A program made the position numbers and the translations under genes. A stretch of DNA of 64,000 nucleotides, from NCBI GenBank assembly GCA_963575745.1, contig CAUYUJ010022415.1, positions 555,001 to 619,000 of the forward strand, in the 5' to 3' direction. Of this stretch, positions 1,700 to 63,715 are shown piece by piece. Numbering within the stretch: the first letter of the stretch is position 1; each line of letters begins with the position of its first letter. Below the pieces are notes generated by a model. That model saw nothing but the letters and a program-made list of their open reading frames with translations. It was not told the origin of the DNA and made no database searches. The stretch comes from Prorocentrum cordatum. Taxonomy: Eukaryota; Sar; Dinophyceae; Prorocentrales; Prorocentraceae.

Positions 1700-1965
1700 C
1701 AATGAGAAGGTCTGAGTATGAGTAATTCTGAGTATGAGTAAGTCTGTGTATGAGGAACTCTGAGTAAAAGGAGGAGGAGAAGGAGGAAGTCTGAGTATGA
1801 GTAAGTCTGAGTATGAGTAGGTCTGGGTATGAGTAGGTCTGAGTATGAGTAAGTTAATGTGATCAGGTCTGAGTATGAGTGAGTCTGTGTATGAGTAAGT
1901 CTGTGTATGAGTAAGTCTGTGTATGAGTGAATCTGAGTATGAGTGAGTCTAAGTAGGAGGAGACG
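1700..1965. repeat. 16-bp minisatellite (GTCTGAGTATGAGTAA)
   Basis: About fifteen imperfect copies of a unit close to AGTCTGAGTATGAGTA, with variants GTCTGTGTATGAGTAA and an AGGAGGAGAAGGAGG interruption near 1771-1787. It starts just after the 216-bp array and ends in a GAGGAGGAG-rich stretch. The Leu/Thr/His-rich frame reading through it on the minus strand is a product of the repeat. Confidence 0.85.
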
Positions 1966-2039
1966 AGAAGAGGGGAGAAGGAGAATGAGGAGTAGGAGGC
2001 GTCCAAGTAATAACAAGAACCCCATCTTAGGATATGGGG

Positions 2040-2985
2040 AACAAAGATTTGGGCCCGGGGCCATCTGGGCCGACTTGGAGCGCTCTGGGGCCTCCCGCTC
2101 CCGCTCTGTGGCCCAGCTTGGGCCTGTCCTGGGGCTCTCTTGGGCCGTCTGGGGCTCGTCCCGGGCAATTATCGGGCTCCCTGGGGCCGTCTTGGGGCTC
2201 TTTTGGGTGCCTCTTCGGCGGTCTCGGGGCGGTCTTGGGGGCGTCTGCGGCCGTCTTCGAGCATTGGAAGCTCGAGAATGCGAGAGAACGGAAAACATCG
2301 AACGAACCGATGCAGATACATGATGTGGGCCTCTTTGGGCTCTCTCGGGGCGTCTCTCGGAGCTCTCTGGAGCCCTCTTGGAGACCTCTTGGCCTCTTGG
2401 GCCTCCCGCTGCCGCTCTGTGGCCCAGCTTGGGCCTGTCCTGGGGCTCTCTTGGGCAGTCCTGGGCTGCTCTTGGGAAATCTTCAGGCTCTCCTGAGCCA
2501 TCTTGGACCTCTTTTGGGGCCTCTTCGGAGGTCTCGGGGCGATATTGGGGGCGTCTTCGGCCGGGTTTGAGCGTTGCACGCTAATGCGATGAACATTCGA
2601 AACAAACAACCGGAAATCAAGGACCTCTTCGGGCTCTCTCGGGACGCCTCTCGGAGCTCTCCTGGGGCCTCTTGGAAGGCTCTTGGGCTGTGTATTGGCC
2701 GTGTTGGGACCATCCGGGGCCACGTTGGGGCCATCAGGGCCGTCTTGGAGCGCCTTGGGGCCCCGCGCTCCCGCTCTGTGGCCCAAGTTGGGCCTGTCCT
2801 GGGGCTCTCTCGGGCCGTCTGAGGCTCGTCCCGGGCACTTTTCGGATTTTCGGGCTCCCTGGCGCAGTCTTGGGGCTCTCTTGGGGGCCTTTTCGGCGGT
2901 CTCGGGGCGGTCTTTGGGGCGTCGTCGGCTGTCGTGGAACGTCGGAAGGTCGAACACGCGAGCCACCGAAAACATTAAAAACAAT
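2040..2985 (-). repeat. CCAAGAGGCCC-type array, minus orientation, with three embedded AT-richer cores
   Basis: The plus strand reads as repeats such as GGGGCCGTCTTGGGGCTC, the complement of CCAAGACGGCCCC. Cores at about 2258-2330, 2568-2632 and 2934-2990 break the array. Read on the minus strand they share the plan of the plus-orientation cores elsewhere in the window: a T-rich run, then TTCTCGCxTTxC and a short purine-rich exit into the array. The dispersed unit is thus core plus array, not plain low complexity. Confidence 0.7.
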
Positions 2986-3149: not shown

Positions 3150-3700
3150 CCCGTGGCCCACCAGAGAGCCCCAAGAAGGGCCACGAGGCCGCCAAGAGCC
3201 CTCCAAGATGGTTCAAGAGTGCTCCGAGATGCCACACGATCGTTCCAAGACGGCCATGGCCCCCAGACGCCCCAAGAGGCCTCCAAGAGCACTCCCCAGA
3301 GGGCCCCAAGAGGCAAAATTCATTTCTTGTCCTTAGGTTTTGGCCAGATTTTGGCGTGTCCATCTTTTCGGCTTCCCGACGCCCCAAGACGGCCCAAGAG
3401 GCCCCCAAGATCGCCCCAAGAGGGCCCAAGGTGGTCCCAAGAAGGCCCCAAGATGGCCCAAGAGGGCTCCAAGACGGCCCCAGAGGCATCCAAGACGGCC
3501 CAAGAGGGGCCCAAGAGGGCCCCAAGCGATGCCCCAAAGGGGGAACACAAAACAAAACTTCGAGCCCTCGGCCTTAAGAAGCCCCCAGGAGGCCTCAAGA
3601 GGCCCCTGAGAGGCCCCAAAAGCCCCCAAGAGGCCCTCAGGAGGCTCCCAAGCGACGCTGAAGAGGCCCCCCAGCGGCCCCAAGAGGCTCAGTCATGCGA
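3150..3700 (+). repeat. CCAAGAGGCCC-type array, plus orientation
   Basis: Imperfect repeats of CCCAAGAGGCCC and CCAAGACGGCCC, with a T-rich core at about 3320-3385 (TCCTTAGGTTTTGG through CGGCTTCCCGACGCCCCAAG). The Arg/Pro/Lys-rich frames on the plus strand and Leu/Gly/Trp-rich frames on the minus strand only mirror the repeat. No start codon context or codon structure suggests a gene. Confidence 0.75.
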
Positions 3701-4799: not shown

Positions 4800-5290
4800 G
4801 CTCCCCGGAGCGCGCCAAGAGGGCCCCAACAGGCTTCCAAGACGGTCTAAGAGGGTTCCGAATCACCGAACGATCGGCTCAACACGCCCAACACGGCCAA
4901 AAGACGGCCCAAGAAGCTTCCAAGACTTCCCAAGAGAGCCCCGACCCTTTCCAAGAGAGCCCCAAGAGGCCAAAACCATTGATTTCCATTTGGTTTTTCA
5001 AGGTTTTTGGATTCCTCGCCTTTTCGCGTTTCCGACGCTCCAAAACGGCCCAAGAAGCTTCCAAGACCACCCCAAGACGGCCCAAGAAGCCTCCAAGAGA
5101 GGCCCACGACCGTCCAAGAGAGCCCCACGACAGCCCAAGAGACGCCCAAGACGGTCCAAAAGGACCCCAAGAGGGCCCCAAGAGAGGCCCAAGATGGAGA
5201 CCACGAACCGAAAATCCGAGCCTTCCGCTCCAAGAGGCCTCCTGGACGCCCCAAGAGGCTCCTAAGAGGCCCCAACAAGCGACAAGGGGC
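4800..5290 (+). repeat. CCAAGAGGCCC-type array, plus orientation, with one core
   Basis: Repeats of CCCAAGACGGCCC and CCAAGAGAGCCCC, interrupted by a T-rich core at about 4978-5044 (ATTTGGTTTTTCAAGG through TTTCGCGTTTCCGACGCTCC). Right of the array, 5291-5507 is unique-looking sequence with no recognisable gene. Confidence 0.75.
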
Positions 5291-5507
5291 CCGAACAGTG
5301 CATAAAGGAAACTGCCGAATGTTGTCTTGTTCCCTGCGGTCGTATTGACGAGCAGCCATCTTCCGAAACAGAAGGTTCAGGCGGGCAAAGAATGGTTCCC
5401 GCCTGCGAAATCACCCAAAGCCAGCCATCCATAAACAAAAAAACGACCCACCAGCACCCCATTGACAACGATCACACGGGCACTCGGCAGCCGTGCACCA
5501 ATACACC

Positions 5508-11195: not shown

Positions 11196-13661
11196 TCATG
11201 CCTGGTGTTGACGGTCCATCCTAAGCCCTCTCAGGAAAGCGTTGCCAATGTCCCAGCTGAAGATGGCCCAACCAGACTGCACTCCAGCACTAAGTACGAG
11301 GCGCTGTGAAGTGCGCCTTGCAGTAAAGCTGGCTGTGTCGAGGCCGCCCTGCTGCTGGTCCATAAAACCTCGAACGACTAGACGCGCCTTGACAGCCTTC
11401 GCGCCGTCGATGATCTTCCACCGTAGTACCCAGCGTCCAGTCATAACGTTCTTGACAGCTCCTCTTGGCACAGGGCAGAAGGCCTCGAGCTCCACCCAGG
11501 ACATGAGCTCCTTCAGCTTAGCTGCGAGTACGTCCTTGTGATGGATGCTTTCTTCCTCCTTGGAGAGGTTGTGCATGTCCCTCTCGATGAGGAAGCACCA
11601 GCTCTGCCTGGAGGACTCCCACCGTGCTACGAGACGCCCGTCTCGCCAGTCGTTCATGCGGGTGACGAAGTGACCACGCTCCATCCAGTGCACCAGCGCG
11701 TCATCGAACTCAATCTCTGGAGGCTCGCTGCCAGTGCTGTTCAGCTGGGTCACTTCAGACAGTGCTTCGTTCATGTTGAAGAAATCCTTTGTCTCGATGA
11801 CCTGCCTGCGACAATGACTGCTGGCCGCAGTCCACCAGGCGTCAACATAGAGGTCCTCATCGTGCGCCTCCTCGTCGTCATCCATCGAGACTTCGTCGAG
11901 ACGATCTCCATCCTCATCATGCGGTATGGTCTCGAGCTCAGCTGGGTCGTCATCCTCAGGTACTTGAACTTGTCCAGCCTCAGATGCTGAGGCATTCGGT
12001 CCACTGTTTGACGAAGTTCCTGGCATAACTGTCCGTGGTACTTCTTGAGCATGAGGTTCTCGCAGAGGAAGAACAGGTTGTCCAGATATTGCGGGCTCCT
12101 TCCTATCCATCCGAGCTCGTCGTGATGGCGTGGGCGGTCCAGCCAGGGGAGGTGCACTTGATCTGCCACGCTTCGATACTCGTGGTTCGTCACTGCCTGC
12201 TGGTGGCGCAGTCGGAACAGGCGTTGCGAAGCGAACGGATTTGTCAGATCTGCTTCTTGATGTCGAAGGTGTGGGCGTTCGTTGTCGTGGGTCCATGGGC
12301 TGGTCTGGAACAGGCATCTCCTGGTCAGGTCCAGGAGGATCTGGAGGATCTCGAATCTTTTCTGGTATAGATGATAGCTCCCGGCTCCGACTTCGTTCGC
12401 TCTGTGGAGGCGAACGACCACGACTGACATCAGGTGGTGCTGGTGGTTGTGCAGGTCGTGGTGGCAAGCCTGCTGGGATCATGTCCTCGTCGGAGTCGTC
12501 ATCGAAGCTGCCCATGGCCCCGTCCATGTCGATGTCTGGTGATGCACGATCTCGTCCCTCACGCTGTATGGTTCTTGCGTCCGTATCGGCGACTGTGAGG
12601 AACTGCACCCAGGAGGTGTCGTGCCAGCGCCAGCCAAACACCTGTGTGGTGTCAAGACGTCGAGTCCCCTGCCACTCTAGGTAGTTGTAGCCATCTTGAC
12701 CAGTGTTCCAGTAGGCGACGGGAGTGAAAGAAACTGCATCCATCTCAGGAGAGGTGTGCATGCCATAGCCTACTCTGATACCCACACAGTTGGTGAGACC
12801 CATATGCATGTTAGCAGTCATGAAGCCCCTAGCAAATATCCCAGGATGAAGTCGAGCCCCCTGATATATGATCCAGCCCTGTGCTGCATAGACCCAGCCG
12901 ATGACAATCATGCGACGTCCGAGTTCAGTGACGAACTCACGCAGCGGGGCCCACTCGTCTGGGAACTGCAGGAAGAAGCTCGACCAGAACGTGGAATGCC
13001 TCCTGACGTCCTGGAGCCTGCAGATGAGCACGCGGCCTCCCCAGCGTACATGTACAATGCCATCGTTGAGCGTCTCCTCCGTGGCATCCACGATCTTCGC
13101 CGGGCCTCTCCATCCGTCAAGGTCCTTGTTGGGCGGTGCCCGGGAAATATCCACAAGATCACCTGTTTTGTACTGAAACTTCTGACCAGCAGGACGTGTG
13201 CGTGAACGCTCAGATCTGATGAGGCGCTCAGTCGCTGTCTGTTCGATCATGCTGGAGAGAGCAAGCTCGCGCGCACGTGCTCGATGAAGATGCTGTTGGT
13301 CTTCCTGCTGAGTGGTCGTGGGAGTCTCGAAATCCTGGGGCAGATTGGGCGTTTCACCCAGAACAGCCTTGTACGGTGTAGTCCTGCCAATAGTCATCAG
13401 AGCGTTCTTAGCGTAGCACGACTCACGTACGATCTGCTCGGGTTTGATTATGATGCCCTCGCGGTCACACTGCTCCTTAAAGCGGTGACAGACTCCCCGA
13501 AGAAGTTCATGATGTCTCTCGACCTCCTGGGCGTGTTGATCCACAGCCCTGAGCTTCCTATGGAAGCGTGACGTGCGCACATCGCCATGCCGGCGTCGTG
13601 CGCGAAAGCTCCTTCTTGGTCGATGATGAGAATACGTGGAGGTCCAAAAATCGCGATCCAC
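11196..13661 (-). pseudogene. pol: copia pol, integrase C-terminus, linker and N-terminal RT
   Basis: 821-codon frame. Residues 46-48 (QEVERHH) carry the third integrase catalytic residue (Glu of DDE). An RNA-binding-like stretch follows (YKTGDLVDISRAP, about residues 165-180), then a long Ser/Arg/Pro and acidic linker (about 390-620). The RT start is at about 700-810: KARLVVRGF and SWDIGNAFLRG, the RVT_2 finger and first palm motifs. The frame then ends after 10 more residues. The next recognisable sequence, 14 bp on, is the connection domain, so motif B and the YxDD active site are missing. Typical copia RTs have about 150-200 residues there. Confidence 0.85.
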
Positions 13662-28330: not shown

Positions 28331-30093
28331 CGAGGTGCAAGCACTGTCGGGGGAACAGGAACAGGTAATGAGCTGGCTACCCTCCGAATGGGCCACGCCA
28401 GCCCGCTGCGCTATGCGTTGGACCGAGCAGGAAATCGGCGAAACATCGAAAGACACCCCCCTCGTCGTCTTTGTCATCCCTTTTCCCTGCGCCCCCCCTT
28501 TCCCTGGGCCCGTCGCCGCTCCCCCCCCTTGCCTTGGGCCCTCCTCCTCAAGCGCTGGGCCCGTCGCCCCCCCCCTCCCATTCCTAGGCCGTCTTCCTCA
28601 AGCGCGCCAGCCAAAGACATTAAGCAACCTCGTAAGCGATTCGAAAGAAAGCCCCTTCTCTTTGATCCCTCCTTCGCCGGGCTGGGGGGGGTCCCAAGGG
28701 GGGTCGCGGGGAGGAGGCCCCGGGGGGGGTCCCGGATCGGATGCGACTCCACCCCGGGGCCCCGAACCACCCCCCCAAGAGGATCCAAGCGGTCCCCGAC
28801 TGGCCGAACGATCTGTCCAAGACGCCTTGACGGCCTCCAGACGGCCCATGAGCCCTGCAAGACGGCCCAAAAAGACCCCAAGAGCACTCCCAAGAGGGCC
28901 CCAAAGAGGAAACGCAATGGTTTCCCATTGGTTTTTGCTACATTTCGGCGTTTTCGTCTCTTCCGCTTCCCGACGCTCCAAGCTTGCCCACGAGGCCTCC
29001 CATATCGCCCCAAGACGGCCCACGAAGGCTCCAGGAGGGACACAAAACGGCCCCAGAGGGCCCCATGACGGCCCAAGACGCCTCCAAGACGATCCAGAGA
29101 GGCCCCCAAGACGGATCCAGGAGGGTGCTCAGACGAGGGACAAAAAGGGACACTTCGAGCCCTCGGCCCCGAGAGGTTTTTTGTTTGACTGGAGAGCGCG
29201 AAAGCGCAGGTGCAGCCAACCCGCTCGACACTGTGCAATCGAGCGGGCGGCGAAGGGCAGCCAGTGCGCTGCCGACGCAGAACGGTGCTGGGGCCAGGTG
29301 TGGCATTGCATCCTGGGCCGCAGCAGCACCGAGAAAGGTAGGGCCACGGTCGGGGCGGACCTGCGTCCACCCCCGTGCTCGGGATTCCCTGAGATCCCCC
29401 CACCTCGACGGTGCCCCAAGGCTCGGGTACAAGGCTGGCTGCGTAACCAGCACCGCCGAGAGGAGGGGGAAAGAAGCGTGCGGCGCGCCTTCCCCCTGAG
29501 GCGGGGTGCCTGACGCGCGCGCAGGGCGTGCGCGCAAGCGCGCACACGCACGCCGCACTCTCGACAGGCTGGCGGCGCCCCAAAGCTCGGGTGCTGGGAC
29601 AGGCTGCGTAACCTGCACCGCCAGTCGGAACGAGAAAACGCAAAGTGGCTGAGCAGCCACCAGAAAGGACAAGCCAAAGTCGACCACCCACACAGGGACG
29701 ACGAGACCTGCCGCCCCAGGTGCAGCGAGCGCCAGGACGACGGCAGGCCTCGCCCCAGATGTGGGGCATGCGCACGGATGCCTGCCCTGAGGGCCAGTCG
29801 CATCGGGCCGCGCGCCATTGGCAGAACACAAAACAAAAGGCCACTTGAACAAAGAGCTGGCCAGGCCTAAAGAGATCGTCTAGAAGAAACAACCGTTCTG
29901 CACTGCTTTGCCCCCTGCTGTGGAAGTTGGCCCAGGGGGAGGGCCGCCAGACGCTTGCGCCCGCGGCGCGAGATTGGTCTACGAGGCTTGCCCAAGCCGT
30001 CGGAAAGGACCCGACATTGGCCATCCAGTCCACACGCAAAACAAAGCACCGTGCCCTGGACCCCCGTCTGGAGTCGGCGAGTTTGATGAATGA
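28331..30093. repeat. C-rich sequence, CCAAGAGG array with core, and a spaced direct duplication
   Basis: 28480-28780 is C/G-run-rich. 28780-29160 is a plus-orientation array with a T-rich core at about 28916-28980 (CATTGGTTTTTGCTAC through CGCTTCCCGACGCTCC). A motif of about 50 bp (CCCAAGGCTCGGG ... GGCTGCGTAACCAGCACCGCC) at 29412-29457 recurs at 29573-29622. A 569-codon minus frame and several others overlap here; they cross the array and were not called. A short plus frame at 29930-30121 (DWSTRLAQAVGKDPTLAI) might be coding. Confidence 0.5.
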
Positions 30094-30190
30094 CTCGGCC
30101 GAGAAAGAAGAAGAAGAATAATAAGAAAAACAACAAAAACGCACACGCACGCCGGCTCCACAAAGCGAGCAACAGCACGGCACGGCGCAT

Positions 30191-30620
30191 TCAGAACATC
30201 AGGAGCGGAATTCCCCAGATGCGGCGAGACCAGGCGCTTTGCGGTCGCGCCAAAAGGTCCGCTACAACCCTGGCCCAGGTCGCCTCGACCAGCTGCCTGT
30301 CGATGTCGTGGGTGGCCAGGAAGAGCGCCCATGAGTTGATCGCGCCCATGGCCGTCGTGATCGCGGGGTCAGAGTGGCCCATGTCCAACTGGAGCTGGGT
30401 GGTCAGCGAGGGTTGGCTGGAGCCCTTGCGCAGGATGCGGCCCAAAGCTCGACGCCATTGAAGAGGAACCGATGGAGGGGTGCCGTACATCTTCGCAGCG
30501 TAGGAAACACACGGCATGGCGGCAGTGACTGCGAGAAGTAATCCTATCCTTCGATGCGCCAGGGCCCCCCTGGCCAGGTTGCCGATCTTGCGAAATCTGA
30601 AACGAGCTTTCTCGACTCAC
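30191..30620 (-). pseudogene. LINE-A ORF, C-terminal region
   Basis: Frame from 30517: AAKMYGTPPSVPLQWRRALG then QLQLDMGHSDPAITTAMGAI and THDIDRQLVEATWARVVADL. The position after RT motif C and the helical make-up fit the thumb/post-RT region of a LINE protein. An upstream frame (30620-30520) appears shifted relative to it. No RNase H motif is seen in this element. Confidence 0.6.
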
Positions 30621-32330
30621 TTCTTATGCTTAGCTTGACCACGTCGAATGTTGCCACGATCAATGCCCAAGTCCACAACTCGATCTTTGTACGGGGCTGC
30701 GAGCCCCAACTGCTTCAAGTTGGCCTCCAGGACAACCCCAGCCAAGACAGATGAGTTGAGGATGTTTGACTTCGGCGAGATGATGAGGTCCAACTCTTCG
30801 CAGTCGTCGCGCAGGGTGGCGGCAACCTTGGTGATCTGGTCGACTGCAAACTTCGGTGGGGCTGCGATGCGAGTGTTGAGGTCGTCGACCCATGACTTGC
30901 TAGTGACAGGGGTAAGAGCCTCGCACATCTGCTCGAGTGTTCGATAGAGAATGCAGCGCGAGAGGTCGACTGCTGACCTCAGTCCTGCAACCATTGCCTT
31001 TTGGGGCTGAATAGGAAGAGAAATGGCCTGACTCCTTCAGGATTCTGGGGGCGAAACATTGCTGCATTGTCAGCGCCAGCGTGTGCGATGGAAACTTGCG
31101 ATCTTCTGCGGTGGTGATGAGCGCGACCCAGTCCAGGGAATCATAGAACGCCTTGAGATCCCAAAGAACTTCAAGGTGAACCAAATCGTCGAGGGGAGAC
31201 ATCCTGACTGCTTCATCTCCAAAATTGCGGATCAAGACCGCTCGCAAGGAGGAGGATCCAGCAATGACCCCATCCCAATGACCTGCTGCCTGGGCGCAGC
31301 GCTCACGGTCCAGCGGGCTCCTGATGGCCCCCCAGAGTCGAACTAATAGTGATGCCACTCCGATCGCCCGATCATCGTCGGTCGACTTCGGCAATAAACT
31401 GATGAAAACCACCATGAGCTGCCACGGCCACGAGACACATCTCTCAACTTTATGGTATATGTCAACTAACGTTTGGATCGCTTGGTCCGGTAGACGTCGG
31501 GGATCGCAGATGCTGAGAACCTCGCAGCCTTTGGCTTTCTTGGGAGAGATACGCTGTAGAATATGTCTGATCTGATCGATTGAGATGGGTTCCAAATCTG
31601 TGTCCAAGGCTTTCTGACGGGCCTTGGCGAAAGCGCCCATCACTTTCTGCTTGTCGAACCGTTTGCTGCTCCAGGCCTTCTCCCACCAGCCCCGCTTGGC
31701 GGTCATGATCTGAATGGGAGTCGCCATGGTCCCTTGAACCACTCGAATCCCATTCAGCGTGACTGGCGGGTGTCTGATGAAGCCATAGAGCTTGCCTGAA
31801 GTGGTGGACGCCATGGTGAGGATCCAGGAATCGAAACCCCGCCGTGATGCTGTGGCTGAGAAACGCTGTGCCCGAACTGCAGTATTCTCGATTGTTAGCT
31901 TGAGCCACTTTGGCTGAGCAAGGGTGAGATGATCCACTCTGTGTAGGGTGACTGTCAATTTTCTCCTGGCCGTCGGTGAAAGAGGAAGAGCTGCTGAGGT
32001 AGGCAGGGTGCAAATCAGCCCCTTGATGCGCACACGAATGACCAAGTTCTTGCGTGGATCCTCAAACTTCCTGATCAGCTCCTCGAAACGCGCCAGAGGA
32101 ATAGCCCACCGCTTCGTGGCCGGATCAGCCTGAACAGTGCACTGCTTGGGCGCCTTGATAGGTGCCATTCTGAACTGTCTCGCAGCCGCTCGCCCAGTAT
32201 ACGATCTGGCTGCATTGGGTAAGATATCTCGCATCCGCATGTAGAGCTTCTCAAGCACAGAGACCCACTTGCCATGCAATCTTCCAAGATGCAGGGCTGA
32301 TAACTGCGAGGCTTGAAATGCAAAGACTGC
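30617..32330 (-). pseudogene. LINE-A reverse transcriptase
   Basis: Copies element RNA into DNA at the insertion site. Frame 32279-30900 (459 codons): finger region ILQRISPKKAKGCEVLSI and SLLPKSTDDDRAIGVASLLV (equivalent of the PKxxxRPI block), then motif A LWDLKAFYDSLDW at about 372-384. The frame then changes near 30995. Motif B-like MVAGLRSAVDLSR and motif C SWVDDLNTR (catalytic Asp pair, 30886-30881) lie in the next frame. Both catalytic motifs survive but in different frames. Confidence 0.82.
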
Positions 32331-32334
32331 TGGC

Positions 32335-33560
32335 TTATATCCGTCGGCTGGTTGAGGAAATCTGAGAAAGAGGGGTCAATACTGCGCCAGACTTTATCTC
32401 GGGAAAGCTGCTGCTGTTATGGGGGGACCTGGGGCGGGTGCTTTTCCCATAGTCCACGTTGGAGGGGCCCCGACCAGCCTCAGAGAGGGCCCCCATCCCC
32501 AGGTCTCCAGGGTCTTCCATCATGAGGTCTGGGGGCAGGCCCTGCGCAGGTTCATCATCAGAGGACTCCTCCTCCAAATCTGCAAAAGTGAGATTGGGCG
32601 GCGGCAACCCTGGGATAGGCGGTTTGGTTGTCAGGGCCGTCTCCGACTTTACCAGCTTCCTCTGCTCTGTTTCTGCTGCAGTGGCTGCCTTGCGAGATCT
32701 TTTACTAGCAGGGTCTGCCTTTCCCCCGGGAAGAGGCTGATGCGTGAACGAACGCGGCAAAGAATAACGACGAGCTTGGGCCAGCACAGCTCGAGCTCGA
32801 AAGTCAATATTGAGCCCGTAGTGAGCTTTGCCAGCTATTGCATTGCGGGCCGCAACTACTGATGTGTCTGCTGCGAGGCTGGATATCAGAAGCCGCGCGT
32901 GCGGTGAGACAATGCCGTAGTCCAACATGGATCCTGAGCCGATGGTGCAAACATGTACCACGTCCGTCGGGACCCCCCCCCCCCAATCACGGTCAGCCAC
33001 CCTGACTGCATCAGGGTAGAAGGTGGAACGCTCCAGTCGGCAAAGATGGCCCATGGGAGGTGCAGGCTCTTGATGAAACTGCTAAGGATCGCGAGCTTCT
33101 GAAGGTCGATGCCTCGAATGCCAGTGGAGCAAATCAGATAAGCCGCCACGATGCAAATCGAGGTGCCTTTGGCGTGCCATACGATGGGAACAAAGTCGTG
33201 GAAGTCGACGCTGCCCTTGGTGGAGGCAAGGTCCCTCATGCCAATCTGCTGCGCCCTGTTGATGGCAAGGTGCCTAAAAGAGGAGGTGGTGAAAGTATTC
33301 TGCATGCCCAGAACCGCGCCTCCAGAAAGTTTGGCACGGTCAGTCGGCCTGGCAGGTGCGCAGGTAGCCCTGTAGCCATTCCTGCTGCAGTGCCGAAGAA
33401 AATCAGCAGAGTGCTCATCGCCAGCATGAGTTTCCACCAAGAGGATACCGTCGTAGTGTCGTTCATCAATAAGACCTTTGGCTGCAGGGCCCAGATCGAG
33501 AGGTTGCGAAAGTAGAAATGCCATGTCTTGTCCTTCTCATACTCTGGATGCTGCTTGCGT
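32335..33560 (-). pseudogene. LINE-A endonuclease (EEP family)
   Basis: Nicks target DNA to prime reverse transcription. Frame 33524-32886 has GILLVETHAGD (E31, in the place of the catalytic Glu), LSGGAVLG and AIFADWSV (D163, usual GDFN/GDWN site with Asn replaced by Ser). The frame shifts at the C-run about 32969-32981. The rest, in frame 33054-32335, gives GSMLDYGIVSPHA and KAHYGLNIDF, matching the IDY and SDH end motifs, with SDH altered to KAH. A Lys/Pro/Ser linker then leads to the RT. Confidence 0.72.
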
Positions 33561-34055
33561 TTGTAAGTGGCAGTAGCGGGGCCACCAGCACCAGTTGGGG
33601 ATCTACCGACCACGCTTCCAGCAAAGGCATGGTCAGGAGCTGGATCCCATCTGCTGCTGTCTGCGGGCGAGCTCCTTCTCGAAAGCGGCCGACGCCGAGG
33701 GCTCCTGGGGCGCCGAGGGCGCAGGCGGCGCCCCCTCGGCCGTTGGGGCCGCAGTGGCTCCAGCGGCTGCAGCACCCCCTGGAGTGGCCTGGGCCTCGCC
33801 GTTGCTGTCCTCGGCTCGGCGACGCTTGGAGGCAAGTCGACCCATCTGCTGCTGGTGAGCCGCCCGCGCCTCTATGGCCTTGTTGGCCGCATCTGCGAAG
33901 AGCTTCTTGGCGCCCCACCTGGAGGCCCTTGACGAGGGCACCCCGTCGTTCTTCAGCTTGCCGTAGTTCGTCATCGCCCAGACCTTCCCCGCCGCCCATG
34001 AAGAAGACGTCGCCGAAATCGATTACGAAACCGCCGGGCTTATTTTCCAAGAGCG

Positions 34056-34094
<39 letters not shown>

Positions 34095-34900
34095 CCTGGG
34101 TTCGGGTGCAGGGGTGGCTGAGCGAATCGAGACTGCCAGTTTGTCGCGTTCGACCTGTAGCACGTCCAAATGGGCCTTGAGGGAGACGACGTGCTCCCAG
34201 TGCTGTTCCAGGTCCTGTTGCCACTTGTGTTATCTACCCATGGCCCTCTTGAGTTTGGCGTCTTGATTGTCGAGGGCCCAGCGTGCCATTGAGAGACGGG
34301 TCTCGAGCGGTGGCTGAGGACGTGGGCCCTTGTCGAGCTCGCCCAGCCTCTTCTGGCGCGCTTGGACAAGATGGGTCTGGCCACGCTTGGTAGATGAAGC
34401 TAACATCGCCACCAACTCCGAGCGCTCGAGCTTGGAGACGCCCACCTCAGGGATGCCAGCGGGGGGGCCGTTGGCCCACTTGGAGCTCGGGTCGACCGCT
34501 CTCTCGTTGTCCAAGGCGCGGGTGATGTCCTTTGGCATCCACTCTTCGCAGCGGTTGCGCCACTGATATGATCCTGGATTCTTGGCGCGTCCGCGCGAGA
34601 GGAGAGACATTTCCACATGGGGCCTCCCGAGCGATGCGGGTCGCGTTTGCCCTTGGCGCCAGTGCGAACCCAGGGGCTGCAGGTCCAACTCCAATCAGCG
34701 GAAGCAAGATCAGCAGAAGGAGCCATGGCGCCTTGGTGTGCGATGTCGTGTCCGAGGTCGCGGTGAAAATTGGCCTGGTGGCCAGAAGCCCAGGACTGGG
34801 CGACGCTGCGTGGCCTGGCGGCTCGCGCAGCGGGGCGGTGAAGAGTCGAACACTGGCCGCGGACTAGCGGCATCCACTTGTTTCCGTTGGGAAACCAAAA
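33561..34900 (-). pseudogene. LINE-A N-terminal region (helical, possibly RNA-binding)
   Basis: Frame 34694-34230 reads YQWRNRCEEWMPKDITRALD then KLERSELVAMLASSTKRG and METRLSMARWALDN-type helix. After a TAA it continues in frame as HKWQQDLEQHWEHVVSLKAH and VLQVERDKLAVSIRSA, a likely coiled coil. It then reaches a (CT)n tract on the coding strand (34055-34090) and shifts. A later frame (33974-33633) gives KLFADAANKAIEARAAHQQQ and an Ala/Pro-rich linker. This corresponds in place to the ORF1-like part of LINEs; function inferred from position only. Confidence 0.55.
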
Positions 34901-34901
34901 C

Positions 34902-34943
34902 CTTGAGCCAAATGGCTACGGACTTGAACCAAAATGGTTACGG
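34902..34943 (-). other. Two tandem spliced-leader relics
   Basis: On the minus strand, outer copy (34943-34923) reads CCGTAACCATTTTGG then TTCAAG, differing from the dinoflagellate spliced leader (CCGTAGCCATTTTGG then CTCAAG) at two positions, G to A and C to T. One T follows, then the inner copy (34921-34902) CCGTAGCCATTTGGCTCAAG with a single T deleted. The base before the outer copy is G and before the inner is T, both allowed at the leader's variable first position. Tandem genomic leaders are the known mark of mRNAs that were trans-spliced, reverse-transcribed and reinserted. The LINE-A reading region follows directly downstream. Confidence 0.93.
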
Positions 34944-35110
34944 CCTCGGCCCCGAGAGGCCCCCAAGAGAAACCAAGAGGCCCCCGAGAGGCCCCCAAGA
35001 GGCCCCAAGAAGCCCCAGGAGGCCCCCAGGAAGCCCAGAGAGGCCCCAAAGAGGCCCACAAGAGGCGCCCGAAAGCGCTTCGAATAGACCCCAAGAAGAA
35101 TCCATGAGGC
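34944..35110 (+). repeat. CCAAGAGG-type array
   Basis: Plus-orientation array (CCGAGAGGCCCCCAAGAG) directly outside the spliced-leader relics; it is the site into which LINE-A inserted, or was copied next to it. Confidence 0.7.
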
Positions 35111-36137
35111 CTCTGACGCACGTCAGCGTCGTTGTCGTCGCCGCCGCCGCCATTGTCGTCGTTCCCCTTCAAGGTCGGCGGCGCCGGCTGCAAGGCCCTC
35201 GAAATGGAGAGACGCCCCCCTCCCCTCGCACTGCATCCTAGCAGGCGCGCGCTCCCCGGGCAGCCCTGCCTGGGGAATTCACTGCGCCCTAGCAGGGGGG
35301 GGGGGGGCGGGGGGGCGCTCGCAGGAGGGGGCGTGGAGAGGCTGCACGCGCGCGCGTGCGCACATGCACACATGCCACTGCTGCCCAATCACGTCGCGCC
35401 CTGGTTACTGTGGATGGGGTTTATAACCATGCTCGGTAACTGCCGTGCTCTCGTGATCGATATCCTCAAAGATCTTCAACCTCAGATCATAATGATCGTT
35501 GGTGTACTCGATCTGACTCGATATATTCCTCATGAGACCGACTCGGGCCCTCTCATCCTGCGCCCTCTAACTGAACACCGCGGAGAAACCCTGAATGATA
35601 ATGGCAATCGCTCCCGGTGACTTGGCTGAACTCACTTTTCGTCTGCCTGGAACTTCTTATCCTGTGGGCCGAGGTCGCATGATCAAGCTTGGCACTGCGA
35701 AGGGGTCCATCTGCTTCGGTGCCACGAGACGCGGTCCTAGGACGAGGGGCAGCCTTCGCTCTGGGGGCTGATGTTTCCGCTGCCGATGAGCTCGCCATGG
35801 CGGGCTGGTAACAATAACGCTGGTCGGCGTTCGACGGCGCCCAGGCTCGAGGAAAAACACACAAGTGGGGGAGTGTCGCCTCCATCGAAACCCCCTGTTA
35901 AAGGGTGACTCACGCGCGCCCGATGCGCTGCCAGCTTCGCGCGCGCCCGCCCCGCGTGCCTGAGTAGACCCAGACCCGCTTGCCCTCGCAAAGGCCTTCG
36001 GTAACGAGTCGGCCTTTGCTTTCGACCATATGCAACTGCTAGAACGAGTGCTCTAACGCGCTCGGATCCTCCATCAATTCACTTGCACAGGTTGCCTAAT
36101 GCGTGAGGGTCCCGACGTGAGATCTCAGCGCGCTTGA
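35111..36137. other. Unassigned sequence
   Basis: CGTCGTCGCC-rich repeat near 35120-35165, a run of 12 and 6 G near 35297-35316, then more balanced sequence. Frames at 35132-35620 (plus) and 35553-35991 (minus) overlap and neither is convincing. The plus frame passage MIVGVLDLTRYIPHETDSGP near 35490-35540 looks the most protein-like. Confidence 0.4.
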
Positions 36138-50539: not shown

Positions 50540-51513
50540 AAGAGTTGCTGCTGTGAGATGGGCTGGTGGGGATGCGCGAAGCGTGCAGAATTAGCATATC
50601 ACACTCGGCGGTCTGGCACAGGGAAGTGCACAGGAGGTGGCCCCGTTCGCTCTCCGCGCCTTGCAGGCGACGCAGGGCCGCGGGGGGTCCGCTGCACCCA
50701 GGCATCGGCCGATCGTCGCCATAGGACACCTTAAAGCACTTACTGCATCGATCCACGCTTTCCTGGTCGCTCTCGCCGCCAGGGTCGAGGATGGCCCATT
50801 CATGCCAGCTCAGGGCACGCGGGGGCGGCATCCGGGGGCCCGTCTTTTCCCGCCGACGCTCGAGCTTCGGGAAACAGGAAAGCACTGCCGCAAACATCGC
50901 CACGAGCTTGCGCAGCTTGACAAAATCTTGACCCAGCCTCTCCAGCTCGTCTGGGGCACGGCTGGGGTGAAAACTCAGCGCGTGCTTTGCCAACCTGTCC
51001 GCGTCGGCATTGCCTAGGGCGATCTTCCGCTCGCGCGGTGGGAGCGCTGCGATCGCCCCTGCAGAGCGATGCGCAGCCACATGTGAAACAGAACTGATGC
51101 TGGCCTGGCCATCTTCCGCCAGGGCCCTTCGTCGGACGCCCGCGAAGATCTGATTGGGGTCCAACTGCGCAGCGGGGCTCGAGGAGGCCAACCGCACCGC
51201 CCCCAAACAGTCGCTGTGCACATCACTTCGCCCCGTGGCCAGGCAGCTAGGAGTAGCAATCCCCAGATGTTCTTCCAGACTGCGCTGCATGGGGAAGACC
51301 TGGCCACACCGCGCCGAGAGCGCGAGCTCTCACCATGTAGTCCGTGCCAGGGTCTAGGAAAACAGCAGCATAGGTGGCGCGGTTGAGCTCGCGAAAAACT
51401 CCAGTGGTGGCCGACCCATCCACGACGATCTCCGTGTCGAGGGTCAGTCTACAAAACTCATCGATCGTTAATGGCTCCCCCTCAGGTCCCTGGAGGACGG
51501 GGTCGAGGTCCAA
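50540..51513 (-). pseudogene. LINE-B RNase H and C-terminal region
   Basis: RNase H segment 1 (51513-51247): TEIVVDGSATTGVFRELNRA has the first catalytic Asp (D32) followed by GS, and TYAAVFLDPG is the second strand. After a frame change, frame 51290-50540 has ISSVSHVAAHRSAG and GNADADRLAKHALS, the usual late Asp in a GNxxAD motif. It continues through a helix (LGQDFVKLRKLVAMFAAVLS) to WHEWAILDPGGESDQESVDR then CSKCFKVSYGDDRPMPGCSG, a Cys cluster that may bind zinc. Confidence 0.75.
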
Positions 51514-51736
51514 ACAAAGAGGAGGGGGGTGGGCTGAGCCATTATCAACCGAGACCAGAAAAGCAATCTATCGGGCGCAGCCGCTCTCGCCTCGGCGATT
51601 TCTTCGTCAGACAGGCGCTATCGCCTAGCTGCTCGGGGCTCGGAGCTGTCGCAGAAAAAGCTGTCTGTGGACCAGGGAATCGGGCTGACGACAAAGCGGG
51701 CGCAAACCGTCGTGAACGTGCCCCGAGGATCTCAGC

Positions 51737-52618
51737 CTATCTCCCGTCCAACAGGCCCCAGAGAAAACTGCACTCAGCCATTCTTTTCTCACGAGGGGAG
51801 GTGCGCTTGGAAAGCATCATTCTTTGGAGCGGGTCCGAAGCAACTCTGTCAGCACTGAACTCTGGCAATGCCTGCGCCATACGACGCTCATGTGATCTCT
51901 GAACCCCCTTCTGCAGCAGCTTATTGACCAGGGCAGGTGCCGCGTAGAGGAGATCGATAACGTACCCTCGGTCGTCGTGCCACACTGTGAAACTGGTAGC
52001 TGTCCACCCTATTCTGTGTAGGCACAACAGCATGCGGTGCATGGGTCCCCGAGATAGCTTCCAACCAGAAGGTTCCAGAACAAGAGTTTGAGCTTCCACC
52101 GTGTCCCGCCATATCTGGATGCGTTCCCGAAACGAGAAAGGTGATGAACGCGGCTGGGTGATGGACCTCCAGATGCCCGGGGCCCATTGGGCCGCTGGCG
52201 CAGCCGCCTGCTTCCACGCTGGATCGCCGTGCAAGACCAACTTAGCAGTGAGGGAGGCACCTTTGTGTGCTGGACTGCGTCCCGCCATTAGAGTACTCTG
52301 AAGTGCCCGTAGTTCGCCATCCGCAAAGCCGAGAATCATGGCTCCGTAGCCCGCTGCAGGACGAACAACATAAATCTTAGACATTATGGACTTGTCCCGT
52401 GGCAATCGGTTGCGGTAAAATGACAAAACACGGTGCCCCTTACGCATAGCTCGTAACCGTTGGTGACGCTTGTGTAGTCCTCCTCTGCATCTTCTCCTCT
52501 GGCCTGGTGCTAAATCTGCCCCAAGAGATACTACTGCATTCGATGCCACCGACGGACATGCCACTCGCAGCCTCCTGGAGAGCCTCGTCGCCAGTCTCTG
52601 CGAAGATGCAAAAGTCAC
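51737..52618 (-). pseudogene. LINE-B post-RT (thumb/connection) region
   Basis: Frame 52618-51737 overlaps the end of the RT frame; the join is a frameshift near 52500. Beyond it: HRVLSFYRNRLPRDKSIMSK, YGAMILGFADGELRALQSTL, TAKLVLHGDPAWKQAAAPAA, RIQIWRDTVEAQTLVLEPSG, RGYVIDLLYAAPALVNKLLQ. Ordinary helical composition and position between RT and RNase H identify it. No stop for 293 codons. Confidence 0.7.
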
Positions 52619-53617
52619 CGCCTTGTCCTCCGCTAGGTGGACGTTCAGCCGTTCCGAAAAAAATAGCTTTCAAGTCGTGGCCAGCCTTGGTTAGGTTCGC
52701 CACTATCTCGTCCTCGTCTCCATACGCGACTAGCGTGTCGTCATCTATGTAGGAGCCTAGCGATACCTGTGGATCTCGGAGAGAGAACTGGTCGAAATCG
52801 TACGTAACATATGCTCTAACGAAGACGTCGTTAAAGATGTCCCCCGCAGGAAGGCCTGAGCCCGCAAAGAGCACCAGAGGGGAGCAGTCGGTGCCCAATC
52901 TGAGTATACGGGGGCCTCGCCATAGGTTGTAGAGGGTCTTGATGAGGACCAAGGGGATGCCCCAATAGACGGCTCGATCTCGGAGCCAGGCTAGAACAAA
53001 GGACTCATAATATTTCATACCATCCCAAATGAAACCTGCTGTAGCCTTCCCAGTCGAAGAAGCCTGTTCCGCGAGGACGCTTTGTTTCCAGATGGCCACC
53101 TCCGAACTAGTTCCATTCCCGAAGGACCAGTAAGGCCGTTGGGCCCGCTCCAAAAACTCATCAGCTTGGCCCCGTCGGAGCCTCTCCCACAGGCGCACGG
53201 GCGCCCCCAGGAGCAGGATGGGCCGTAGACCTCCCTTCGGCTTCTCCAAGAGGGGCATCAACATCCACAGCAATTGGGACGGAAAACTTCCTATCCGCTC
53301 CACCGCCTTAAAGAGTAGCGCCAGGACCTCCAGCCCCATGTCGCTGAGGCAGGCAAAGTGACGCGGGTGGAAGCCGTCCAGCGACTGGGAGGTATGCCTG
53401 CTGAAGGACCTCGCCGCGACGCGGAGCTCCGTCGGTGTAGCTCGCGGGAAGCACTCACGATTTGGGACCCAAGCTGTTGGAGGACTTAGACTAGCATTCC
53501 AGTGCTCACCTAACTTAACCGTCTCGTCCATGAGGAAGCTATTCGGGTCCGAAGTGAAAATACCAGGGGAGCTTTGCACAACCGTGGGGGGGGGAGAGGA
53601 GGGGGAACCAACATCTG
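52440..53617 (-). pseudogene. LINE-B reverse transcriptase
   Basis: Motifs in one frame: SFSRHTSQSLDGFHPRHFAC (finger), LMPLLEKPKGGLRPILLLGA (PKxxGxRPI block), motif A region TAGFIWDGMKYYESF (Asp then Gly-Met-Lys, unusual where FxDxxxAFD is typical), motif B FAGSGLPAGDIFN, motif C GSYIDDDTLVA (residues 323-333, catalytic Asp pair at about 52745-52740). The RT core is uninterrupted for over 300 codons, so this copy is younger or better kept than LINE-A. The first 36 residues of the frame are translated satellite. Confidence 0.85.
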
Positions 53618-61075: not shown

Positions 61076-61970
61076 GGGGGCGCGCTAGAAGATCTTGGAC
61101 AGCGCTATCAAGCACAGGCGCGTGACATAGTCGTGCCTCCTGAGGGCCTCTTGGGAACCTCTTGGGTCTTCGTGGGGGCATCTGAAGGGCTTCTGGGGGG
61201 TTCTCAGTGCTTCCTCAATTGGCTGTTGGAGCCCGGCGGCCCCGGCGGCGTCCCAGGAACGGTCTCAGGCTTTTGGACCGGAGGCCGCATGTAAACGTAC
61301 ATGAAGGTTTCTGGGGAACCCTCTCAGAAGCCCGTTGGGGCCCTCTTGGGGGTCTCCTGGGGGCTTCCTGAGAACCTCGGGGGGCCTCTCGGAAGCCTCT
61401 TTGGGGGCCTCTGGAGGCCCTTTGGGGCCTGCCGCGGGCGTCTTGGGGGCCTCTTGGGGCCTCTTGGGGATCTCTTAAGGGCCTGTTGGGGGCCTCCTGG
61501 AGCGGGGGGCTGGAAGGTTCAGTTGGGTTTCCCGTCTTGGGCCCCTCTTGGGGCCCTTCGGGGACCCGTTTGGGCCTTCCTGGGCGCCTCTTGGACTGTC
61601 CTGGGCCCCTCTGGGGCCGTCTTGGGGCTATCTTGTGGGCTTCGTGGGCCGTCTTGGGGCGGTCTAGGGAGAGTCTGAGGTCGTAAGGGACGGTACGAAG
61701 GACAAAAAATCGAATATAGTAAAAATGCACGTTTTACAAAGGGAAGGGGGCTATTTTTGTTTCCCGGGGCCGTCTGGGGGGATCTCTTGGAGGGGTCTTC
61801 GAGCGTCTTGGAGGCGTCTGGGGCGGTTCGAGACGCCTCTTGAGCCGCCGGAGACCGCTGGAGGTTGTCTTCAGGGTGGCTCTGGGCGGCCTTGGGCCGC
61901 CTGGACGGCCGTCTGGGCGCTCCGGGGGCCGACCTGGGGCCCGCTTGGGAGCGGGCTGGGCCCGACGTCC
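61076..61970 (-). repeat. CCAAGAGG-type array, minus orientation, with core
   Basis: 61130-61685 is minus-orientation array. 61690-61765 is a core whose reverse complement (CCCTTTGTAAAACGTGCATT) matches the cores of the 62.7-63.5 kb tandem repeat (CCCTTCGTAAAACGTACATT). 61770-61970 returns to array. Confidence 0.72.
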
Positions 61971-62569: not shown

Positions 62570-63715
62570 AAGACGGCCCCAGGAGCGCCCAAGACGGCCC
62601 AAGAAACTTCCAAGAGGCCTCCAAGAGGGCTCCGAGATGCTGAAGATGGCCTCCAGACGTCCAAGGACGCCCCCAAGAGGCCCCAAGAAGCCTCCAACAT
62701 GCGTCCCAAGAGGGCCCCTAGACGCAAAAATTGGCCCATTCCCTTCGTAAAACGTACATTTTTCAACAAAGTTGCTTTTTGGGCTTTCCGACGTTACAGG
62801 ACGGCCCACGAGGCGCCCAAGACCGCCCCAAGACGGCCCAAGAAGCCCCCAGGACAGCCCAAGAGGGCCCCAAGACGGCCCAAGAGGCGCCCAAGATGGC
62901 CCAAGAGGGCCCCAAGACGGGCCCGAGAGGGGGCCCAGAGGGGGACCACGAACCGCAAGCTCGAGCCTTCCGCCCCAAGAGGCCGCCAGGAGGCCCCCAG
63001 GAGGCCCCTCAAGAGGCCCCAGGAGACCCCAGACGTCCAAGGACGCCCCCAAGACGCCCCAAGAAGCCTCCAACATGCGTCCCAAGAGGGCCCCTAGACG
63101 CAAAAGTTGGCCCATTCCCTTCGTAAAACGTACATTTTCAACAAAGTTGCCTTTTGGGCTTTCCGACGTTACAGGACGGCCCAAGAGGCGCCCAAGACCG
63201 CCCCAAGACGGCCCAAGAAGCTTCCAAGAGGGCCCCAGGACAGCCCAAGAGGGCCCCAAGACGGCCCAAGAGGCGCCCAAGATGGCCCAAGAGGGCCCCA
63301 AGACGGGCCCAAGAGGGGGCCCAGAGGGGGACCACGAACCGCAAGCTCGAGCCTTCCGCCCCAAGAGGCCGCCAGGAGGCCCCCAGGAGGCCCCTCAAGA
63401 GGCCCCAGGAGACCCCAGACGTCCAAGGACGCCCCCAAGAGGCCCCAAGAAGCCTCCAACATGCGTCCCAAGAGGGCCCCTAGACGCAAAAATTGGCCCA
63501 TTCCCTTCGTAAAACGTACATTTTCAACAAAGTTGTCTTTTGGGCTTTCCGACGTTACAGGACGGCCCAAGAGGCGCCCAAGACCGCCCCAAGACGGCCC
63601 AAGAAGCTTCCAAGAGGGCCCCAGGACAGCCCAAGAGGGCCCCAAGACGGCCCAAGAGGCGCCCAAGATGGCCCAAGAGGGCCCCAAGACAGGCCCAAGA
63701 GGGCGCCCCGAGGGA
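62570..63715 (+). repeat. 376-386-bp tandem repeat, three copies
   Basis: The anchor TTGGCCCATTCCCTTCGTAA starts at 62731, 63107 and 63493, spacings 376 and 386 bp. Each unit is one T-rich core (through GGGCTTTCCGACGTTACAGG) plus one CCAAGACGGCCC array block ending in CAAGAGGGCCCCTAGACGCA. Copies are over 95% alike by eye, with small indels in the array. It shows the core-plus-array composite amplified as a unit. Confidence 0.92.

Follow-up and report, generated by a model that had tools for sequence, protein, structure and literature searches.

Dinoflagellate mRNAs receive a 22-nt leader through trans-splicing by the host. Relics of this spliced leader (DinoSL) on reinserted cDNAs were described by Slamovits and Keeling in 2008, as retold in passages of PMC6050394, PMC3229502, and PMC12014239; tandem relics in transcripts are described in an excerpt of PMC3229502 as cut at the internal AG, i.e., as the product of re-splicing. 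The type of reverse transcriptase (RT) behind the retrogenes is called unknown in a section of PMC6050394, with Ty1/copia favored. LTR elements or LINEs are suspected where SL relics are found on retrogenes or near viral inserts (passages of PMC6050394, PMC12014239, PMC3942190, and PMC10235124), and the same theme runs through excerpts of PMC8045281, PMC7245778, and PMC11453091. Endogenous dinoRNAV elements also carry the DinoSL, there the mark of retroposed RNA with LINEs as the suspected machinery; their cargo is viral, and the LINEs' own 5' ends go undescribed in that excerpt (PMC10235124). Tandem-SL genes and genomic relics with CCGTAG are reported for Fugacium, these being genes for SL RNA or related to such genes, some with the intron and some lacking it (PMC6616646, in part). 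The L1Tc/ingi LINEs of trypanosomatids, whose hosts trans-splice their mRNAs, are transcribed from a Pr77 promoter of their own into RNA that stays unspliced, and they have an HDV-like ribozyme (PMC8190864, in part). We found no description of LINEs with the leader as their own 5' end in a literature search that covered such excerpts and had most subscription journals outside its scope.

Here, we report an insertion in Prorocentrum cordatum, assigned to the LINEs by its protein relatives, that begins with two DinoSL copies. It lies in a window, i.e., the whole stretch of DNA that was analyzed, of 64 kb with a GC content of 59.3% (the genome is given as 4.15 Gb with 59.7% GC in the part of PMC10666404 cited here). 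Like the dinoflagellate retrogenes, this LINE has a relic leader at its 5' end, tandem leaders occur, and an inner leader cut at the internal AG is absent in the window copy and seen in eight others; unlike the retrogenes, which carry host genes, the cargo here is a LINE, the leader is flush with the target-site duplication (TSD), and there is mostly one leader. The SL relic is shared with the dinoRNAV elements, whereas the cargo is not, and the tandem leaders resemble those of Fugacium in lying in genomic DNA but sit here at the edge of a LINE insertion. Our data suggest that several LINE families leave the making of their front end, and probably its renewal, to the host. This bears on how dinoflagellate LINEs get a translatable 5' end and on which RT gives rise to the flood of retrogenes; where other LINEs rely on promoters or ribozymes, this would be an additional way of solving the 5'-end problem.

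The leader pair is located on the minus strand at 34943..34902, and Tandem Repeats Finder gives the same pair. The outer copy (34943..34923) reads CCGTAACCATTTTGGTTCAAG and differs from CCGTAGCCATTTTGGCTCAAG by two substitutions (edit distance 2); the inner copy (34922..34902) reads TCCGTAGCCATTTGGCTCAAG, with one T deleted (edit distance 1), and is full length, without a cut at the internal AG. The initial annotation had described two minus-strand leaders head to tail, with two substitutions in the outer and one deletion in the inner, and our edit-distance scan bears this out. No further DinoSL within four edits is present in the rest of the window, and ten Markov sequences of the window's length and composition gave no match at up to three edits and a mean of 0.1 at up to four. 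The two substitutions of the outer leader (leader positions 7 and 17) affect both partners of a single base pair in the leader hairpin and are mutually compensatory, for which the chance is ∼0.007 to 0.012 given two random substitutions; we draw no mechanism from them. Only the first of these two substitutions is found in the copy L086. A third decayed relic behind the inner leader was considered and rejected, its best edit distance of 7 being no better than that of random windows.

The insert spans 34943..29177 (5767 bp), with the leader pair as its exact 5' edge and an A-rich tail (AAACAAAAAA, 29177..29186, minus strand) as its 3' end. A 16-bp TSD, CCTCTCGGGGCCGAGG on the minus strand, stands directly before the outer leader (34959..34944) and is repeated exactly, directly behind the tail (29176..29161); within the window, the 16-mer occurs at just these two sites. 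The outer DinoSL starts with the first base of the insertion, its leader position 1 being either absent or coincident with the final G of the TSD. The TSD is the sole 16-mer common to the two flanks (400 versus 800 bases), and two off-diagonal 15-mers are also in common because the flanks are repetitive. The insertion interrupts a GC-rich target repeat, with the upstream part at 34960..35070 (tandem repeat table and joined-flank alignments) and the downstream part at 28775..29160 (joined-flank alignments). When the flanks were rejoined, five uninterrupted paralogues of the repeat aligned across the junction with 63 to 75% identity, all without the insertion (3265-3688, 4837-5292, 61333-61827, 62645-63094, and 63010-63480). 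It follows from these edges, i.e., the TSD and the rejoined target repeat, that the last copied RNA had the leader pair at its start and A at its end. Dating of the insertion by comparing TSD and frameshifts was dropped for having too few sites.

On the evidence of its relatives, the insert is a decayed LINE, for which the endonuclease relatives are clear and the RT assignment is weaker. The leaders had been placed in front of a LINE reading the same way, which agrees with the LINE-type coding matches at 34448-30209 on the minus strand. The P. cordatum protein P0002 matches the insert with an E value of 0 and 1088 bits, P0003 and P0004 match it more distantly, and the protein relatives match in pieces between 34448 and 30209, the frames of the window copy being broken at several places. 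The region at 33003..34448 (minus strand; tblastn with P0002) corresponds to the N-terminal part and the endonuclease, that at 30209..32721 (minus strand; tblastn with P0001-P0004) to the middle part and an RT-type region; both have broken frames, and the latter contains WVDD at the expected place of the alignment, which we take to be the RT motif. The decayed window copy itself matches no Pfam family, and an APE-type endonuclease is recognized through relatives: P0003 matches PF03372, of the exonuclease-endonuclease-phosphatase type, above the cut-off (28 versus 24.5 bits), and the window matches P0002 over this region. The endonuclease and RNase H matches of P0004 are both below cut-off. No Pfam RT match was found in the window copy or in P0001-P0004; the open frame of L126, an SL-headed relative, aligns with RVT_1 over 157/205 positions below cut-off (E 0.071), and a profile of the relatives has one PDB match, to an RNA-directed DNA polymerase, which is weak at E 0.19. 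The RT assignment is less firm, being based on these weak profile matches and the WVDD motif. In most other measured copies, the 3' UTR lies further downstream than in the window copy, which is therefore probably shortened internally. A structure prediction of P0003 (mean pLDDT 37) was left unused, and an alignment with LINE relatives in viral contigs had no usable stretch. P0001, which comes from a green-alga data set in EukProt (Pyramimonas sp.), is 76% identical to the window LINE, by contamination or transfer.

The assembly that contains the window (4.128 Gb) was searched for other copies. A bait from the 5' UTR (34400-34901), with the leader left out, gave 41 matches from the 40 of 394 candidates that were scored, and 37 of the 41 were read. 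Among these scored candidates, the matches represent 30 loci and 29 distinct elements, of which 20 carry the DinoSL flush at the junction seen in the window copy, preceded by other DNA. Eight of the 29 have no leader: L009 and L012 end within the UTR, where target repeat follows directly, as expected from the 5' truncation of LINEs; L013 meets a stretch of N; and L014-L018, two of which (L014 and L015) have one common flank, stop for no evident reason. L019 has an exact leader and a truncated relic, followed by a UTR with a different start and by the same LINE body, which suggests an exchange of 5' UTRs.

With the start of the UTR alone as bait (34880..34901, minus strand; GTTTTGGTTTCCC(A/G)CGGAAAC), its 22 nt were found at 58 genome sites at up to one mismatch, against 0 for the reversed control. 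Together with two loci with two mismatches, the leader is flush in 60/60 sites of this UTR type; it is exact in 36/59, and the 60th site has a leader with two edits. These sites belong to more than one family, i.e., that of the window copy, which lies in the GC-rich repeat, and a more numerous group, mostly in (CCT)n, that has about the first 100 UTR bases in common with the window type; three members of the more numerous group that were read further (L127, L128, and L129) all match the LINE queries. Two other families gave the same picture. The leader is flush in 20/20 other copies of the L040 family, all in or beside (GGA)n (20 of 21 other base-1 matches read; 40 of 60 candidates scored), and in 6/6 other copies fetched of the L043 family, which has 10 other matches. 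Please note that the L040 and L043 baits were chosen for their leader, whereas the other copies of both families were not. In total, three leader-free baits found the leader flush at the same junction in 86/86 copies read, with differing flanks, and 82 copies remain after removal of three duplicated flanks and one identical locus. The DNA upstream of the leader in these copies is target DNA, differs between copies, and is often simple repeat. The check on junctions proposed in the initial annotation came out in its favor, which supports its inference that the host leader serves as the 5' end of the element and that this is general. Families headed by the SL (L022-L031, L052-L091, and L130-L156) occupy (CCT)n, (GGA)n, or a GC-rich 11-bp repeat, suggesting family-specific target choice.

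The insertion ends of other copies were examined by fetching the 3' regions of eight of them, so that, with the window, nine copies were checked for a TSD. The TSD adjoins the leader in 7/9 copies, i.e., the window and six others, with lengths of 13 to 19 bp, and these copies have the A-rich tail and variable-length TSD that characterize LINEs. The TSD measures 14 bp in L005, 16 in L008, 19 in L010 (part of it possibly tail), and 16 in L020, where it adjoins the outer of two leaders; in L003 it agrees at 15/16 positions, as seen by eye with one mismatch, and in L004 it is weak (11/13). The two copies with no TSD result are L006, which has no 3' UTR match, and L007, the end of which is outside the fetched region.

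SL sites were also sampled regardless of LINEs. Sites within two mismatches of the leader number 33,832 genome-wide (∼one per 120 kb), against 9 for the reversed control. We took 40 of the first 41 listed exact sites, omitting one inside a stretch already fetched; 20 were read with 6 kb downstream and 20 only in the zone of +3.0 to +4.3 kb (1.3 kb). LINE protein matches (E ≤ 1e-5) occur on the leader's strand at 14/40 sites (8/20 and 6/20), one of them weak (L124, E 8e-6), and on the opposite strand at 0/40. The first 20-site sample had given seven same-strand matches with fewer queries. For the LINE-containing window, 13% of random 6-kb starts meet a same-strand LINE piece. There is no LINE match at 26/40 sites, 20 of the 40 having been read only in the 1.3-kb zone, and the leader heads things other than LINEs too.

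Whether the leaders are inherited or renewed can be judged from the variants that copies share. For the window UTR type, we started from 59 sites and removed three duplicated flanks, seven tandem copies, and four copies with indels or a shortened leader, leaving 45; two more gapped rows were removed on the UTR side (43 used). For the L040 family, two tandem copies were removed and L040 itself was left out (18 used). L060, L088, and the tandem L152 have a non-single leader. In the window UTR type, the leader has 0 shared and 13 private variants and the UTR 27 shared and 14 private; UTR positions 23 to 46 alone, outside the bait pattern, have seven shared and eight private (Fisher 0.007). In the L040 family, the leader has 0 shared and four private variants, the UTR 40 shared and 12 private (Fisher 0.005). 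When pooled, the shared variants are 0/17 for the leader and 67/93 cells for the UTR (26 private; Fisher 1e-8), the p-values of all these comparisons being indicative only, as the copies have a common history. In 8/86 copies, a second leader begins exactly after the internal AG. Together, the private leader variants and the AG-cut inner leaders imply that fresh leaders keep arriving. Most copies have a single leader and no stack, despite the many cycles that their families have gone through; leaders therefore appear to undergo replacement in each cycle rather than stacking. A single leader as the usual outcome is what splicing at the terminal AG of the old leader would give. If leaders are mostly replaced rather than added, their number is a poor count of retroposition rounds.

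We consider it quite probable, from the letters of the genome, that the window pair marks the 5' terminus of a LINE, and that the RNA of this LINE would be processed like a host mRNA, with the leader replaced in each cycle. The leader at the insertion edge, the TSD, the A-rich tail, the one junction, the private leader variants, and the truncated inner relics are read directly in the DNA; from them we infer a transcript, its cap and transcription start, the AG used, and copying by the element's own enzyme. The element would be transcribed, and the host would trans-splice the 22-nt leader onto the LINE RNA. The LINE machinery would then copy this RNA at the nicked target through the leader, and the new copy would start with a DNA leader, which in the next round would provide the splice acceptor. 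Usually the acceptor would be the terminal AG (after CAAG), and the old leader would be replaced one for one; occasionally it would be the internal AG (after CCGTAG), and a truncated second leader would remain. For the window copy, the acceptor was probably an AG just outside the old leader, such that a full-length second leader remained. Re-splicing at an AG just upstream of an old leader would yield a full-length tandem; the flank as it now stands, with GAG directly before GCCGTAACC, could do so again. The chances are about even, in our opinion, that this extends to dinoflagellate LINEs as a class, i.e., that the spliced leader is their self-renewing 5' terminus: host trans-splicing would make the 5' end and cap, the copied leader would bring its own 3' splice site to the next insertion, old leaders would be erased in every cycle, and the tag would be shared with host mRNAs.

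Most copies have a single leader and a junction that does not change, which would also fit a leader that was acquired once and is now element DNA, e.g., a promoter or start site, transcribed and copied in each cycle without new trans-splicing, and a promoter role for relic leaders was proposed earlier (PMC6050394, in part). However, the absence of shared variants in the leader (0/17 versus 67/93 UTR cells), the exact host leader as the commonest state (36/59 sites), and the eight inner leaders cut exactly at the internal AG, which need a splicing event, speak against this explanation, and we regard it as unlikely; part of the private-variant pattern could also arise if a leader that is inherited were under strong constraint. 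The leader might instead be added during integration, by an RT that switches template from the end of the LINE RNA to the SL RNA or to the 5' end of another mRNA. Other LINEs are known to switch template to small nuclear RNAs. Such switching hardly fits a join that is exact to the base in 86/86 copies, and a switch to the SL RNA should often bring its intron, of which there is none at the junction, leaving this route with very little probability. Given how common SL sequences are (33,832 sites at up to two mismatches), one may even think of an SL-bearing retrocopy that landed beside a LINE by coincidence. At ∼one SL per 120 kb, with one TSD pair bracketing leader and LINE together, and with the junction recurring in every copy read, the probability of this is negligible, and we exclude coincidence because of the TSDs and the recurring junction.

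For the window pair taken by itself, it had been claimed that the LINE RNA was trans-spliced and retrotransposed at least twice. From the sequences compared, at least two cycles are likely; the pair does not prove them, since one trans-splicing from a tandem-SL gene, or a local duplication, would leave the same arrangement. Tandem-SL genes are reported for Fugacium and put forward in that work as an explanation other than repeated splicing (PMC6616646, in part), the inner copy in the window is full length, and the outer leader, with two changes, looks no younger than the inner one, with one deletion, unlike what is expected of a fresh outer leader, so we dropped leader decay as proof of two cycles. 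On the other hand, the AG-cut tandems in other copies indicate that re-splicing occurs in the lineage, and L048 and L051 have full-length second leaders, with different decay, behind exact leaders. A tandem donor or a duplication is a possible but less probable origin of the window pair than two cycles.

The UTR behind the leader was inspected for structure. The stretch GGATGCCGCTAGTCCGCGGCCAG (34853..34875, minus strand), common to several SL-headed families by alignment and pair counts, contains a 4-bp hairpin, CCGC TAGTCC GCGG, ∼30 nt behind the leader, which is present in the window UTR type, L032, L038, and L039; in L036 and L047, two of the four pairs are changed on both sides (CCCT/AGGG). 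Over 12 hand-picked sequences, with one lineage showing the change, 48/48 cells pair, and no slid version exceeds 46%. A 5' ribozyme was rejected as a candidate: Rfam gave six chance-level matches in 34000-35400 (E up to 5), with no ribozyme among them and thus no HDV-like one, and nothing at gathering scores in the whole window, the search covering known families and missing any undescribed ribozyme. Both this LINE and L1Tc/ingi of the trypanosomatids (PMC8190864, in part) reside in hosts that trans-splice their mRNAs, and they differ in that the host leader forms the 5' end here and no ribozyme family was found.

It is evident from leaders that are flush with TSDs on LINEs that target priming in this genome copies SL-bearing RNA right up to its terminus, and this favors the LINE machinery as the source of the retrogenes. 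If the proposed cycle is true, the common 5' tag of LINEs and host mRNAs could explain why many host mRNAs become retrogenes. In the viral collection, a sole contig (L001, IMGVR_UViG_3300045993_001077; 1936-2913, minus strand) has the exact DinoSL and carries two, one of them 45 nt before a 254-aa frame without a Pfam match; the neighboring genes are AT-rich, and one of them encodes a glycosyltransferase. This may represent the retroposition of a dinoflagellate cDNA into the genome of a virus. The window contains a second LINE of another family (51274-53564, minus strand), broken off at its 5' end beside a tandem repeat; a TSD for it was dropped, as the only match was 11 bp of low complexity. 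L123 is an SL-headed relative of this second LINE (48% identity), so that lineage too has an SL-headed member. An 821-aa frame at 11196-13661 on the minus strand of the window has a weak, below-cut-off match to a Copia-type RT (RVT_2, E 8e-6).
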